From: an uncultured Puniceicoccaceae bacterium
Lineage (GTDB): Bacteria; Verrucomicrobiota; Verrucomicrobiia; Opitutales; Coraliomargaritaceae
NCBI GenBank assembly: GCA_913044165.1
Contig: CAJWMY010000001.1
Coordinates: 30,468-94,467, forward strand
Reading direction: 5' to 3'
Length of the DNA stretch: 64,000 nt
The notes below the pieces were generated by a model. It was not told the DNA's origin and did no database searches. It saw only the letters and a program-made list of their open reading frames with translations. Shown here piece by piece: positions 54,110-59,582 of this stretch. Position 1 is the stretch's first letter. Every line of letters starts with the position of its first letter. The position numbers and the translations under genes were made by a program.

Positions 54110-55594
54110 TTAGTCTTTTAAGCAATAGCGGTTGCTAATTGAAATCCCACTTAGCATAGCTCCTACAATTCCTAGAAAACCTTGATCGGTTCCGGCAATA
54201 TATAGATTTTCTAACGATGTTTGACCATCTTTTATTTTATTTGGGCATCCATAGATTGCCCCATTAATATGCCCAGTAAATTTCTTTACAGTCTTCGGGG
54301 TAAACATATCTTTTGCAATAGTTCGTTTTTGAATTCCTTTAAGACTTTTCGGTTGTCCTGGAAGTACATCAAGAGCAGTTTCAAGTAATCGATCATACCA
54401 TATAGCTTTTTCGGACTGATAGTTAGTTTCGGGTAAATTAAACCATTTTTCAGTGTGCGCGAGGGCAGTAATTCTCAAAATACCATATTCAAGATTTGCT
54501 TGGTTTGAGTAGTCATAGTTATTTGGAAAGCAGATGACACCGCTATTTCGGTCAGCTAATTTATCCTTGGGCGCTTTGTAAGAGAATTTTTCTGATTGAT
54601 TAAAGAAGATAATAGTATCATTCCATCCAAATTCTTTGGGTTGTTTATCTAAAAGAGTGATCGTCTCAGTAAAGGTTAATTTTCCAACATTATTTTGGTT
54701 TATGTTTTTAGCCTTTAATGGTTCGAAAAGCGCTAAGGTTTCATTAAATCCTGCAGTAGAGATTACGTTGTTCGCAGTAATTATAGAACCATCATCTAAT
54801 TCTAGTGCCTCAACGCGTTTATTCTTTGAGATAATTTTTGAGACTCCGCAACGCATTTTCCTAATGCCTCCAAGCGAGCGGTACTGATCTTGTAATGCTT
54901 TTATAATTGTACGAACACCATTAATTGGTCGAGCAAATCCTTCAAAAAATAGTGAGCGAAACATGATTACAAACTGAGAAAAGTCCATGTCATCTTCAGT
55001 AGCACTTCCATAATACATCGTAGGACATAAGAGCATGGAGGTAAGTAATGGGTCATTAAAATAGCTTTTAAGCACCTCTCTAGTAGATACAGCTATATTT
55101 TCTAAATTAAATGCATCGTAGCTTTGTATATATGCAACTAGTTTGTGAAAGCCATCAATACAGCTCGGAAAATTCTCTGCAATTTCTGACTCAAAGTATT
55201 TAAAATCATTACTAAAAGAAAGCGAACATTCAGGGAAATGGATTTTCGACTGCAACTGAGGATATAAATTAAATGCATCATATGGAATTCTTAATTGTCG
55301 TAATAGTTTAGTTAATGGAGTGCCTTTTGTTCCTTTAGGAACGTAATTTGTCATGGCATGTAAGCCGACATCATATTTGTGGCCTTTTATGCTGTAAAAA
55401 GAATTAAGGCCCCCAGAAGCGTTGTGCCGCTCTAGTATAAGAGATTCTTTCCCGGCTAGTGCTAGTCGTATTCCAGAAGCTAGGCCTGCCATACCCGCTC
55501 CTATGATGACACAATTAAAATGTTTTCCGTTTAATTTAGAATCTTTGATGGGGCTCTCAGGTATATTAGTAGAAGTGCTCACTGAGCCATTCAA
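54110..55594 (-). CDS. Phytoene desaturase/retinol saturase-like FAD-dependent oxidoreductase
   Basis: NCVIIGAGMAGLASGIRLALAGKESLILERHNASGGLNSFYSIKGHKYDVGLHAMTNY; C-term GTDQGFLGIVGAMLSGISISNRY. Confidence 0.82.
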   Translation of the reverse strand: MNGSVSTSTNIPESPIKDSKLNGKHFNCVIIGAGMAGLASGIRLALAGKESLILERHNASGGLNSFYSIKGHKYDVGLHAMTNYVPKGTKGTPLTKLLRQLRIPYDAFNLYPQLQSKIHFPECSLSFSNDFKYFESEIAENFPSCIDGFHKLVAYIQSYDAFNLENIAVSTREVLKSYFNDPLLTSMLLCPTMYYGSATEDDMDFSQFVIMFRSLFFEGFARPINGVRTIIKALQDQYRSLGGIRKMRCGVSKIISKNKRVEALELDDGSIITANNVISTAGFNETLALFEPLKAKNINQNNVGKLTFTETITLLDKQPKEFGWNDTIIFFNQSEKFSYKAPKDKLADRNSGVICFPNNYDYSNQANLEYGILRITALAHTEKWFNLPETNYQSEKAIWYDRLLETALDVLPGQPKSLKGIQKRTIAKDMFTPKTVKKFTGHINGAIYGCPNKIKDGQTSLENLYIAGTDQGFLGIVGAMLSGISISNRYCLKD

Positions 55595-55599
55595 TTGAC

Positions 55600-55848
55600 T
55601 TAAGTATTAAATTTTGGCGTCAAGTAGTCCGCACAACTGTCAAGCGATGCAAGTTTAGGATAATCTTCTTCAGGGACTTCAATGTCGTGCTGTTTTCGAA
55701 GTTCCATGACAATGTCAAGGAAGTCCATTGAATCTAAGTCCATCTGCTCCCTCAGATTAACTTCAGATTTAAGATCAGAAGTATCCTCATCAGGCGCAAT
55801 TTCATTGATGATGTCTATTACGATTTGTTTAACTTGTTCTGCGGTCAT
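55600..55848 (-). CDS. Acyl carrier protein
   Basis: MTAEQVKQIVIDIINEIAPDEDTSDLKSEVNLREQMDLDSMDFLDIVMELR; start set at the internal Met (track start is 55878). Confidence 0.85.
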   Translation of the reverse strand: MTAEQVKQIVIDIINEIAPDEDTSDLKSEVNLREQMDLDSMDFLDIVMELRKQHDIEVPEEDYPKLASLDSCADYLTPKFNT

Positions 55849-55870
55849 AAAATTATTGTGTACAAATTGA

Positions 55871-57106
55871 CTAATCATTAAATTTTTTCAATACTAGAGC
55901 TGAATTAATTCCTAGCATACCAAAAGAGTTGTTAAGAATAATATCTACAGAGTCAACTTTTAGGGATTGATTTATAACTAAATTTTTAATTGCACACTCC
56001 GGATCTAAATCGTCAATATTTATCGTTGGATGAATCATATTATCTTGAAAAGAAGGCAAGTTTCCAGCTAGTTCTAATGCCCCAGCTGCACCCATAGCAT
56101 GTCCAATAAACCCTTTAGTATTGTTGACGTACGTTGTTGGGCAACTTTTAAACACTTCGTTAATAGCTGTGCATTCTTGGATATCTCCTTGGGGAGTAGA
56201 AGTGGCATGAGTACTAACGAGGTCAACATCTTCTAATTCTATTTTAGCTGATTTTATAGCTTTTCGCATGCACTCCGCTTGCCGAACAGGATTTGGTAGC
56301 ACGTAATCACTTGCATCAGAGTTCATGCAATAACCAATAATTTCTGCTATAATGGGAGCCTTTCTTTTTAAAGCATCATCTAGCCGTTCTAAAGTATAAA
56401 TACATCCACCTTCAGAAACAACAATACCATTTCTATATCTGTCAAAAGGGCGACTAGCACAATTAGGATTTTTGTGTTTGGCTAAGGCACCCTGACTTTT
56501 AAACCCGGCAAATATTCCAAATGTTTTTATACTTTCACTTACACCCCCAGCTAATGCTAGATCAACTTCATTAAGCTTTAACATTTGTACTGCTTGAATA
56601 AGGCCTGCATTTCCTGCAGCACAAGCAGCTCCTATTGTGTAGTGTGGACCTGTTATCCCAAGGTTAATAGTAACTTCTCCAGCTGGATTATTTGCTACAG
56701 TTCTCGGATTATGGTGATGGGTCCAATATCGTGTATCATAATTAAATTTTGATATATTATAGATTTCATTTTCAGTTTCTACATTGCCATGTTCTGTTGT
56801 ACCGACGTAGACACCTATACGATTTTTTTGGAAGGCTTCAAAGTTAATTCTACTATCTGCTAACGCTTCACTCGCAGCATAAATTGCGATGCTGCCAGCA
56901 CGAGTTCCAACTCTAAGTTCTTTTCTGGATTGATATTTAGTAGCCTCAAAATCACATACACCTGCAGGGACTTTCCCCATGTAGCGCATTTCAATCTCTT
57001 GAATATTAGCATTCCCTTTTAATAAGTTATCTCGGAATTCTAGAAGGGAATTTCCATTAGGAGAGGTAAGTCCAACACCTGTAATAACTATTCTTGGGTT
57101 AGTCAT
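55871..57106 (-). CDS. Beta-ketoacyl-ACP synthase II-like (FabF-family)
   Basis: Catalytic C (YTIGAACAAGNAG), H (VSTHATSTPQGD), H (GFIGHAMGAAGALE) all present. Confidence 0.9.
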   Translation of the reverse strand: MTNPRIVITGVGLTSPNGNSLLEFRDNLLKGNANIQEIEMRYMGKVPAGVCDFEATKYQSRKELRVGTRAGSIAIYAASEALADSRINFEAFQKNRIGVYVGTTEHGNVETENEIYNISKFNYDTRYWTHHHNPRTVANNPAGEVTINLGITGPHYTIGAACAAGNAGLIQAVQMLKLNEVDLALAGGVSESIKTFGIFAGFKSQGALAKHKNPNCASRPFDRYRNGIVVSEGGCIYTLERLDDALKRKAPIIAEIIGYCMNSDASDYVLPNPVRQAECMRKAIKSAKIELEDVDLVSTHATSTPQGDIQECTAINEVFKSCPTTYVNNTKGFIGHAMGAAGALELAGNLPSFQDNMIHPTINIDDLDPECAIKNLVINQSLKVDSVDIILNNSFGMLGINSALVLKKFND

Positions 57107-57254
57107 ATTTATTTCTAAACTATTAATTCTTTAGTTGATTGATTTAATACTCATTAGTACTATGGATAGTAAACTTGAGGTTCAAATTAAATGTAGTGTT
57201 GGCAAATCTTTTTTTTTGCAATTTTTTTTAATTTATTTCTAATAGAATATTAAT

Positions 57255-57896
57255 ATGAGCGAAGCCATAAGAAAAAATTTTATTTCTAGCAGTCTTGCTA
57301 AGGTAAATAATTTAGAGGTATCCGAGCGTGATTTGGACTGGGCTATGGTACAACGTGTACAAAATGGGGATGTTTCGGTTTATGACAATCTTGTAAAAAA
57401 ATACAGGAATCCACTTTTCTCAATGATTTATAATATGATAGGGAATTCGGAAGATGCCTCAGATATTACGCAGGAAGTTTTTATTAAAGCATTTCAATCA
57501 ATAAAGCAATTTCAGGGGAAGTCTTCATTTTTTACTTGGCTCTACAGAATTGGAACAAATACAAGTATAAACTTTATCAAGAAATCCAAAAGACAACGCT
57601 TTGTTAGTTATGAAAGTATCGATGAGACGCTTATTGGAAGCGAAATTATTGAGTTCTTAACCTCAAAAAATAGGACAGAGAAAAGAATTTTAATTGCTGA
57701 AATCCAAGAAAAATTGAACGATGCGCTTCAAAAATTGTCTCCTAAACATAGAATAGTAGTAATATTGCACGAAGTTGAGGGGATGAATCATAAGGATATT
57801 GCAGAAATTGTGAAGACTAGCGAAGGCACTGTTCGATCGCGATTACACTATGCTAAAAAAGAGTTACAAATTTATTTAAAGGAATATATTCAATAA
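57255..57896 (+). CDS. ECF-type RNA polymerase sigma factor (RpoE-like)
   Basis: Region 2 NPLFSMIYNMIGNSEDASDITQEVFIKAFQSIKQFQGKSSFFTWLYRIGTN; region 4 LSPKHRIVVILHEVEGMNHKDIAEIVKTSEGTVRSRLHYAKKEL. Confidence 0.92.
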   Translation: MSEAIRKNFISSSLAKVNNLEVSERDLDWAMVQRVQNGDVSVYDNLVKKYRNPLFSMIYNMIGNSEDASDITQEVFIKAFQSIKQFQGKSSFFTWLYRIGTNTSINFIKKSKRQRFVSYESIDETLIGSEIIEFLTSKNRTEKRILIAEIQEKLNDALQKLSPKHRIVVILHEVEGMNHKDIAEIVKTSEGTVRSRLHYAKKELQIYLKEYIQ

Positions 57897-57897
57897 A

Positions 57898-58545
57898 ATG
57901 AATAAAAAAAATTCAAATATTAGATTAGAAGATCTATTAAAGCTTAAAAAAGCCGAGCAACCAAGTTCTGAATTTTGGCGTCGTTTTGATAAGCAGTTAA
58001 AAAGGCGCACCCTGCAAACATGCATTAAGGATATTTCTTGGTATCGGTCTATTCTGAGGTTAATTAATAATCAGATTAGTGCTATTTTATCTATAAATCA
58101 TGCATCTTTTGGATGTGATCTTAACAAGTCATGGCTAGGTAAAATGGTTGCTACTGCCTCTGTATTTCTGATTTTATCATGTATTGCTCTCTACCTACAA
58201 ATTGATTCTATAGAGGATAGATCAATTATAGCTACCGACAGCAAAGTAATTTCAGTTGAATCTCAAAGCATTAAAGAATTAGCTGAAATTAATAAAAAAA
58301 GAGCTGAGATATCTGCATCAAGTAATGACTTTCTTGCAGTGGTTGAAGATGAAAAATTAGACAAAGATTACGGCGTTGAAATTATATCTATTGCTAATAA
58401 AAGCGAAGCAATCGAGTTTGCTAGTGATGCAATACCTGTTATTATAGGAGATGCAGTGGATTATTCAGACTCCTTAGTCAATTCTGTTGAGTTTACGAAG
58501 AAGTATTTAAATCCTTATCCTCAATTAGCAAATTTTGCTTTTTAA
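57898..58545 (+). CDS. Candidate membrane anti-sigma factor / hypothetical protein with one TM
   Basis: Directly follows the ECF sigma gene (1-bp gap); cytoplasmic-type N-term, TM segment MVATASVFLILSCIALYLQI, acidic C-term. Role inferred from position. Confidence 0.5.
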   Translation: MNKKNSNIRLEDLLKLKKAEQPSSEFWRRFDKQLKRRTLQTCIKDISWYRSILRLINNQISAILSINHASFGCDLNKSWLGKMVATASVFLILSCIALYLQIDSIEDRSIIATDSKVISVESQSIKELAEINKKRAEISASSNDFLAVVEDEKLDKDYGVEIISIANKSEAIEFASDAIPVIIGDAVDYSDSLVNSVEFTKKYLNPYPQLANFAF

Positions 58546-58559
58546 ATTGCTTTCATTGA

Positions 58560-59582
58560 ATGATTAGAGTTAGCAATTTAAAGTTTTTTTTGGTCTTTCT
58601 TGTATACTTATTTAGCTTAGTATTAAGTTCAATTTCTTTCTCTGCGGAAATGGACAATTCTCTTCAGTCGAATATATTTGAGATTATTGAAAAATATGAA
58701 TCTGCTATTGTTCGAGTTAAGGGAGCATTTCGTAAAGAAGGCATGGAGGGAAAGCCTTCAAAATTGTCTCTCCGCGTGGGTACTGGATTTTTTATAACTC
58801 AAGAGGGGCATATTTTAGTGAATGCTAGTAGGGCTTTGGGCTCAAATCGAATTGGAGTAGAATATAAGGGCAATCATTATCCGGCAGAGGCTATTGGCCA
58901 TGATCCTTTGACCAATATTTCACTACTTAGGTTATTAGAAAAGCCCGAGCTATTTGGTGTTGTCCCTGTTCCCCAAGACCATAAGGATTTACCTTTAGGT
59001 TCATTTGTGATTTCATTATCTTGTCCTTTAGATTTTTCAGTAAGTCCAAATGTTGGAATTATTTCTGGCTTAGATAAAAAACTTGGAGATCAGATTTTCC
59101 CCACTGCCTATCTAAGAACCTCAATCTCGGCGGGTTCTGGACAAGGGGGATGTCCAGTTTTTGATCGTCATGGTCAATTGATTGGTATGACTATTGCCTC
59201 TGTTCCTGAAATGAATGGTTCATATGTTTTGCCCACAAGTTCCTTAGCAAGAGTGAAAGAGGATTTAATGACAGAAGGCAGTTCTCTAAGAGGCTGGATA
59301 GGGATAGAAGTTACTGAAAATATTTCTCATAAAGATGCTCATAATGTTCGTATTTCAGAATTAACAAAATTAGGGCCAGCAGAAAAAAGCGGTTTAAAGG
59401 TAGGAGATACAATTATATCTATTGGCGAGATGCCTATTTGCCATATAACTGATTTACCAAGTGCGGTATTTAAAACTTATATCGATCAATTTACCCCTGT
59501 TGTTATTCAGAGAGAAGAGAATGTAATGGAATTTTTATTGAAAGCAGCTAAGCAACCTATAGCAGAAAAAAAAGAGGATTAG
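58560..59582 (+). CDS. HtrA/DegP-like trypsin-fold plus PDZ protein, apparently catalytically inactive
   Basis: Signal peptide; GTGFFITQEGHILVNASRAL, GHDPLTNISLLRL, SAGSGQGGCPVFDRHGQLIGM; PDZ-like KLGPAEKSGLKVGDTIISIGEMPI. Triad residues substituted. Confidence 0.8.
   Translation: MIRVSNLKFFLVFLVYLFSLVLSSISFSAEMDNSLQSNIFEIIEKYESAIVRVKGAFRKEGMEGKPSKLSLRVGTGFFITQEGHILVNASRALGSNRIGVEYKGNHYPAEAIGHDPLTNISLLRLLEKPELFGVVPVPQDHKDLPLGSFVISLSCPLDFSVSPNVGIISGLDKKLGDQIFPTAYLRTSISAGSGQGGCPVFDRHGQLIGMTIASVPEMNGSYVLPTSSLARVKEDLMTEGSSLRGWIGIEVTENISHKDAHNVRISELTKLGPAEKSGLKVGDTIISIGEMPICHITDLPSAVFKTYIDQFTPVVIQREENVMEFLLKAAKQPIAEKKED

Follow-up and report, generated by a model that had tools for sequence, protein, structure and literature searches.

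Why is an HtrA-like protein that lacks the catalytic triad of its family encoded directly after an ECF sigma factor and a single-TM protein? The question is raised by a locus within a 64,000-nucleotide stretch of DNA (hereafter, the window) from an uncultured Puniceicoccaceae bacterium. A sequence-only reading had located three open reading frames there, which our analysis recovers at the same positions, all on the + strand. The genes and the features discussed below are as follows:

57255..57896, + strand: ECF-type sigma-70 factor, 213 aa (Pfam Sigma70_r2 and Sigma70_r4_2; NCBIfam sigma70-ECF above its cut-off)
57898..58545, + strand: single-TM protein, probable anti-sigma factor, 215 aa (alignments, AlphaFold, zf-HC2 in orthologues)
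58525..58542, + strand: C-terminal tail of the TM protein, LANFAF-COOH, candidate PDZ ligand (last-residue counts, codon use)
58560..59582, + strand: HtrA/DegS-fold pseudoprotease, 340 aa (Pfam Trypsin_2 and PDZ; AlphaFold; Foldseek)
58827..58829, + strand: Ser90 codon at the catalytic His position (alignment to DegP/MucD; no His in 183 orthologues)
58914..58916, + strand: Asn119 codon at the catalytic Asp position (alignment to DegP/MucD; never Asp in orthologues)
59145..59147, + strand: Gly196 codon at the catalytic Ser position (alignment to DegP/MucD)
59295..59306, + strand: W-I-G-I, residues 246-249, candidate PDZ carboxylate-binding loop (orthologue columns)

The first gene product contains the sigma2 and sigma4 domains only, as is characteristic of ECF sigma factors. 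A scan of genome contigs with a single window protein as the query gave no match; a search with a tighter alignment did give matches, the nearest named relatives being Puniceicoccaceae, Opitutales, and Coraliomargarita. No clear GGAAC-type ECF promoter motif was seen upstream of the sigma gene. The element TTTTGCAATTTT is conserved upstream of sigma in the genus, and TTTGCAATT recurs in other loci of the family (window 57205-57235 and, upstream of sigma, loci L003, L004, L006, L015, and L017); this is a possible autoregulatory promoter element. The minus strand at 54110-57106 carries in a row genes that, by eye, encode a phytoene-desaturase-like oxidoreductase, an acyl carrier protein, and a ketoacyl synthase, and that resemble an aryl-polyene-type or other lipid cluster.

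The third product, the pseudo-HtrA, consists of an N-terminal hydrophobic export segment, a trypsin-like double barrel, and one PDZ domain (Pfam Trypsin_2, E 2e-13; PDZ, E 9e-9). The AlphaFold model, computed from 31 sequences, has a pLDDT of 92.6 and a pTM of 0.84, and shows the N-terminus as a hydrophobic helix, which is either a cleavable signal or a membrane anchor. DegP, DegQ, and DegS are the best solved structures found by Foldseek with this model, and its best 50 structure matches are all HtrA folds, none of them of the RseB/MucB type. No NCBIfam model scores above its cut-off, and the curated DegS model TIGR02038 reaches 69.5 bits against a cut-off of 422.95. In a HMMER alignment to the DegP, MucD, and DegQ structures, residues S90, N119, and G196 occupy the columns that correspond to the catalytic His, Asp, and Ser. 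Both the HtrA/DegP architecture and the substitutions H to S, D to N, and S to G, which had been read by eye, are thus borne out. The same columns hold intact H, D, and S in a DegP-like paralogue of the same genome (G000, contig C9, L002). The pseudo-HtrA therefore has the trypsin-like fold and the C-terminal PDZ domain (at least one) of the HtrA/DegP family and lacks its His-Asp-Ser triad. Judged by these columns, it is an HtrA-derived pseudoprotease and is not filed here as a protease.

The loss is conserved across the class, as the sequence-only reading had proposed to check among homologues. We compared 183 distinct orthologues, which form 51 clusters at 50% identity and come from the class plus a single sister-class genome. 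Neither His nor Asp is kept in any of them, which rules out a one-off mutation or sequencing artefact. The Asp position is occupied by Gly (99), Asn (73), Ser (5), Thr (3), Arg (2), or Cys (1), and the Ser position by Gly (100), Ala (28), Ser (13), Ile (13), Val (12), or other residues (17); all 13 orthologues that retain Ser are without both His and Asp. That the protein is still a protease, its catalytic residues having been relocated, could be argued from these 13 and from the Cys in the window's GQGGCP motif. Same-genus sequences, however, have Ser in place of this Cys (GQGGSP), for which reason a relocated triad, or the Cys as nucleophile, was rejected. Considered together with the absence of His and Asp, this makes surviving protease activity extremely improbable.

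Among the genomes sampled, the pseudo-HtrA was found in 146 of 384 genomes and 75 of 177 genera of the class by a search with the family alignment, in which orthologues score from E 1e-67 to 1e-132 and DegP-like proteins at about E 1e-42 to 1e-60. At the level of the order, 52 of 57 genomes give a match at E <= 1e-15, a count that includes DegP paralogues near the threshold; nearly every locus read there has the three genes in the order seen in the window. Beyond the class, the same dead cassette is present in one sister-class genome (G426), while four other matches in the phylum lie near the background level and have intact triads. The gene order sigma/TM/pseudo-HtrA is conserved across the class together with the PDZ domain, so that the earlier suggestion to look for maintained synteny is answered positively: a sigma orthologue lies upstream of the pseudo-HtrA in 172 of 185 loci (~93%), and several of the remaining loci coincide with contig ends or masked stretches. 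One genome (G044) has a pseudo-HtrA, and no TM protein was found in it. ORF starts in this sample are approximate and tail calls automatic; closely related sequences are not independent, a kinship for which the cluster and family counts correct in part.

Strong purifying selection acts on the dead protease domain. Between close species, dN/dS is 0.037-0.12 for the protease part, 0.037-0.18 for the PDZ, and 0.13-0.22 for the TM protein; the whole-gene values for the pseudo-HtrA, 0.06-0.13, rule out a decaying pseudogene. Stop codons were flagged inside the pseudo-HtrA match region of three f22 loci (L067, L069, and L070; the family labels used here are anonymous), in which open ORFs of 327-366 aa are present; the flagged stops probably fall at the margins of the matched region. 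A tree including 18 active-triad HtrAs groups the pseudo-HtrAs together, but support for this clade is weak (ultrafast bootstrap 67), so a single loss of the triad, as indicated by this monophyly, is likely and not proven.

Purifying selection on a dead domain, together with the strong conservation of the dead-site motifs SASRA, GHDRLTN, and GQGGCP within the window's family, would also be expected if the former active-site cleft had been converted to the binding of a ligand or a metal, as in MamO, making the protein a small-molecule sensor. The motifs, however, vary from family to family, and one ligand for the whole class is therefore unlikely. We regard this explanation as very unlikely.

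What, then, might be the partner of the dead protease? The TM protein encoded between the two other genes features a conserved cytoplasmic motif (LEDLLKLKKAEQPSSEFWRRFD), one TM helix, a disordered periplasmic linker, and an aromatic C-terminal tail. The AlphaFold model places helices at residues 10-42 (pLDDT about 90) and the TM helix at 79-108; the linker, 143-215, is mostly below a pLDDT of 50. Pfam gave no significant match for this protein, and none of the curated anti-sigma models of Pfam and NCBIfam matched it. According to the alignments, all its orthologues have a single TM helix and a periplasmic part of low conservation, and their N-terminal motif is LExLLxLKRxExPxxxFWxxFDxEL within the order and LLxLKRxExPxxxYFxxFLxEFHRRxR outside it. 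Five orthologues from other families (L078, L079, L084, L092, and L103) carry zf-HC2, the classic anti-sigma zinc finger, at or above the Pfam cut-off, which supports an anti-sigma role and with it the earlier view of the TM protein as a candidate anti-sigma factor. The gene adjoins that of an ECF sigma factor, and its product has N-terminal helices and a TM helix, as is typical of class I anti-sigma factors. The TM protein is thus very probably an anti-sigma factor, predicted from these features to bind and inhibit the sigma factor.

The conserved aromatic C-terminus of this protein was not noticed in the sequence-only reading and gives the idea of a periplasmic PDZ sensor a concrete mechanism. 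The window protein ends in LANFAF; the last residue is Phe in 138 and Tyr in 29 of 171 orthologues (167 in all), corresponding to 45 of 46 clusters. Control proteins rarely end in Phe or Tyr: this is so for 2 of 172 neighbouring sigma factors, none of 183 HtrA proteins, and 4 of 47 window ORFs, the TM protein included (Fisher P 1e-20 for the clusters against the window background). In three of the four exceptions, an aromatic residue stands 1-4 positions ahead of the last one (FSYK, SFILGM, and RFAN); the fourth probably reflects a wrongly called ORF, since L068 also has an overlapping ORF that ends in SIY. Outside the window's order, conservation at the tail covers a longer peptide, of the type RYVLDxRPVSYEPSFSF. 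The last codons TTC, TTT, TAC, and TAT and all three stop codons occur among the tails, which places the constraint at the level of the amino acid. We considered whether the tail reflects a nucleotide signal where the genes meet and rejected this on the same grounds, and because the tail is kept where the genes lie apart. Thus, in family f16 the sigma/TM pair is separated from the pseudo-HtrA gene, and the tails still read SLF, NVF, or AIF.

The PDZ domain of the pseudo-HtrA offers a candidate receptor. Its carboxylate loop in most orthologues reads W-[I/V/M/L]-G-[V/I/F/L], i.e., aromatic-x-Gly-hydrophobic (most commonly WVGV, WMGF, or WIGI), and Gly248 of the loop is invariant in alignment A4. 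PDZ domains of DegS and AlgW bind the aromatic C-termini of misplaced outer membrane proteins (OMPs) or of MucE (PMC8545111). The window's genome encodes RseP, and its BamA ends in ...HFSFGTRY; OMP-like competitor termini are therefore present in the same cell.

We propose, at about even chances, that the three genes encode a membrane-spanning envelope-stress switch in which the dead HtrA serves as a guard. The TM protein would be a class-I-like anti-sigma factor holding the ECF sigma factor at the inner membrane, and its disordered periplasmic part would finish in an aromatic C-terminus like that of an OMP. The secreted, non-cutting HtrA-like protein would bind this tail through its PDZ and guard the anti-sigma factor from the periplasmic site-1 protease and RseP, thus doing an RseB-like job on a DegS-like fold. 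As unfolded outer membrane proteins pile up, their aromatic C-termini would compete for the PDZ and displace the tail; the released anti-sigma factor would then be cut by an active protease and RseP, and the sigma factor would be freed. The earlier proposal of a protease-dead HtrA scaffold within an ECF/anti-sigma operon draws support from the conserved triad loss, the gene order, and the PDZ. The steps of the model differ in strength. Binding of the anti-sigma tail by the PDZ, the most economical interpretation, is predicted with reasonable confidence. A guarding rather than an activating direction, favoured by analogy with RseB because the pseudo-HtrA cannot cut, is an evenly poised judgement, and OMP competition as the signal is a tentative suggestion.

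If the tail is read by the pseudo-HtrA, the two might be expected to occur together, and for the most part they do. Sigma/TM pairs without a neighbouring pseudo-HtrA were found across the class in 19 genomes of 17 families, in all of which the TM protein ends in a non-aromatic residue. Ten f13 genomes and one f46 genome (L294) depart from this pattern, having the aromatic tail and no detectable pseudo-HtrA. Aromatic tails are thus found in 45 of 46 clusters with the pseudo-HtrA and in 2 of 19 families without it (Fisher P 2e-12, the lineages not being fully independent). Family f25 was at first counted among those without a pseudo-HtrA. There, the gene that follows the TM protein encodes a decayed HtrA in which Pfam sees the PDZ only, and the tail ends in ...EQEF, the two genes being still adjacent; loci L270:600-1535 and L278:610-1464 keep the PDZ and have no recognisable trypsin domain after the anti-sigma gene. 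Going by domain content, this decay is a natural series in which a protease is reduced to its PDZ. We infer that f25 is Verrucomicrobiaceae/Akkermansia-like and f13 Opitutaceae-like.

The f13 genomes deserve particular attention. Their tails end in ...SIKF or ...LTLKF, no pseudo-HtrA is detectable in the ten genomes, and every HtrA paralogue seen in the four genomes tested keeps H, D, and S. The tail is therefore usable without a pseudo-HtrA partner and, as these sequences suggest, must serve another partner there or be a relic. Such genomes are what would be expected if the tail recruits active proteases (an active HtrA, or RseP through its PDZ) and the pseudo-HtrA, instead of guarding, either competes as a decoy or serves as an activating scaffold; the presence of RseP and of the intact DegP-like HtrA in the window's genome is compatible with this as well. 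Against recruitment stand the 17 other families without a pseudo-HtrA, which also lack the aromatic tail despite their DegP-like matches and an expected RseP. We consider the recruitment explanation rather unlikely; were it correct, loss of the pseudo-HtrA would lower or delay sigma activity, not raise it. By eye, several Opitutaceae-like loci without a pseudo-HtrA (L257, L258, L273-L277, and L290) have a longer periplasmic part ending in RLSDEQLYDS...SVSIKF, and in several of them a fumarase-like gene follows the sigma/TM pair.

The same 17 families bear on another explanation, in which the pseudo-HtrA lies solely on the output side of the sigma factor: working in the periplasm as a chaperone without proteolysis, it would attend to unfolded OMPs and not contact the anti-sigma factor directly. 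HtrA proteins can act as chaperones, the fold is DegP-like (Foldseek), and the gene is the third of the operon. This, however, leaves unexplained the aromatic end of the anti-sigma factor and its absence jointly with the pseudo-HtrA in those families, and in our opinion it is unlikely, slightly more so than recruitment.

The guard model, if true, describes a sigma-E type circuit that has exchanged protease activation for competition in binding and is conserved in this form across many families of Verrucomicrobiota. A class-wide switch of this kind, with a dead-HtrA sensor, an anti-sigma factor carrying a built-in mimic of an unfolded-OMP C-terminus, and PDZ competition in place of protease activation, is suggested here with the same caution as the OMP signal. 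It would provide a naturally occurring HtrA pseudoprotease that is widespread and whose peptide ligand is predicted, and would let such anti-sigma factors be recognised by sequence.

HtrA pseudoproteases and sigma-E circuits are both already known. The open-access papers searched contained no description of an ECF operon that combines a dead HtrA with an anti-sigma tail resembling a ligand. MamO, a magnetosome pseudoprotease, is likewise derived from HtrA and kept for another job after the loss of catalysis; unlike the pseudo-HtrA, it is not encoded in a sigma operon, binds metal, has a transporter domain, and carries H116 and D149 at the His and Asp positions (PMC4794232). The TM protein resembles class I anti-sigma factors (ASDI; PMC7406223) in the position of its gene directly after that of an ECF sigma factor, its N-terminal helical domain, and its TM helix, and some of its orthologues share zf-HC2 with them. 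It differs in matching no curated anti-sigma model and in having the LLxLKRxExP...F motif and the terminal Phe/Tyr tail. The RpoE-RseA-DegS/RseB system of E. coli and the AlgU-MucA-AlgW/MucB system of Pseudomonas likewise comprise an ECF sigma factor, a single-TM anti-sigma factor, a periplasmic protein with an HtrA fold and a PDZ domain, and RseP, and the reading of aromatic C-termini by a PDZ is a feature of DegS and AlgW. RseB and MucB correspond to the pseudo-HtrA in its proposed role, that of guarding, in the periplasm, an anti-sigma factor from their own operon, whereas RseB has a lipid-binding fold and the pseudo-HtrA a trypsin/PDZ fold. Compared with both systems, the HtrA of the window is without a triad and lies inside the sigma operon, and the aromatic end resembling a PDZ ligand is found on the anti-sigma factor itself.
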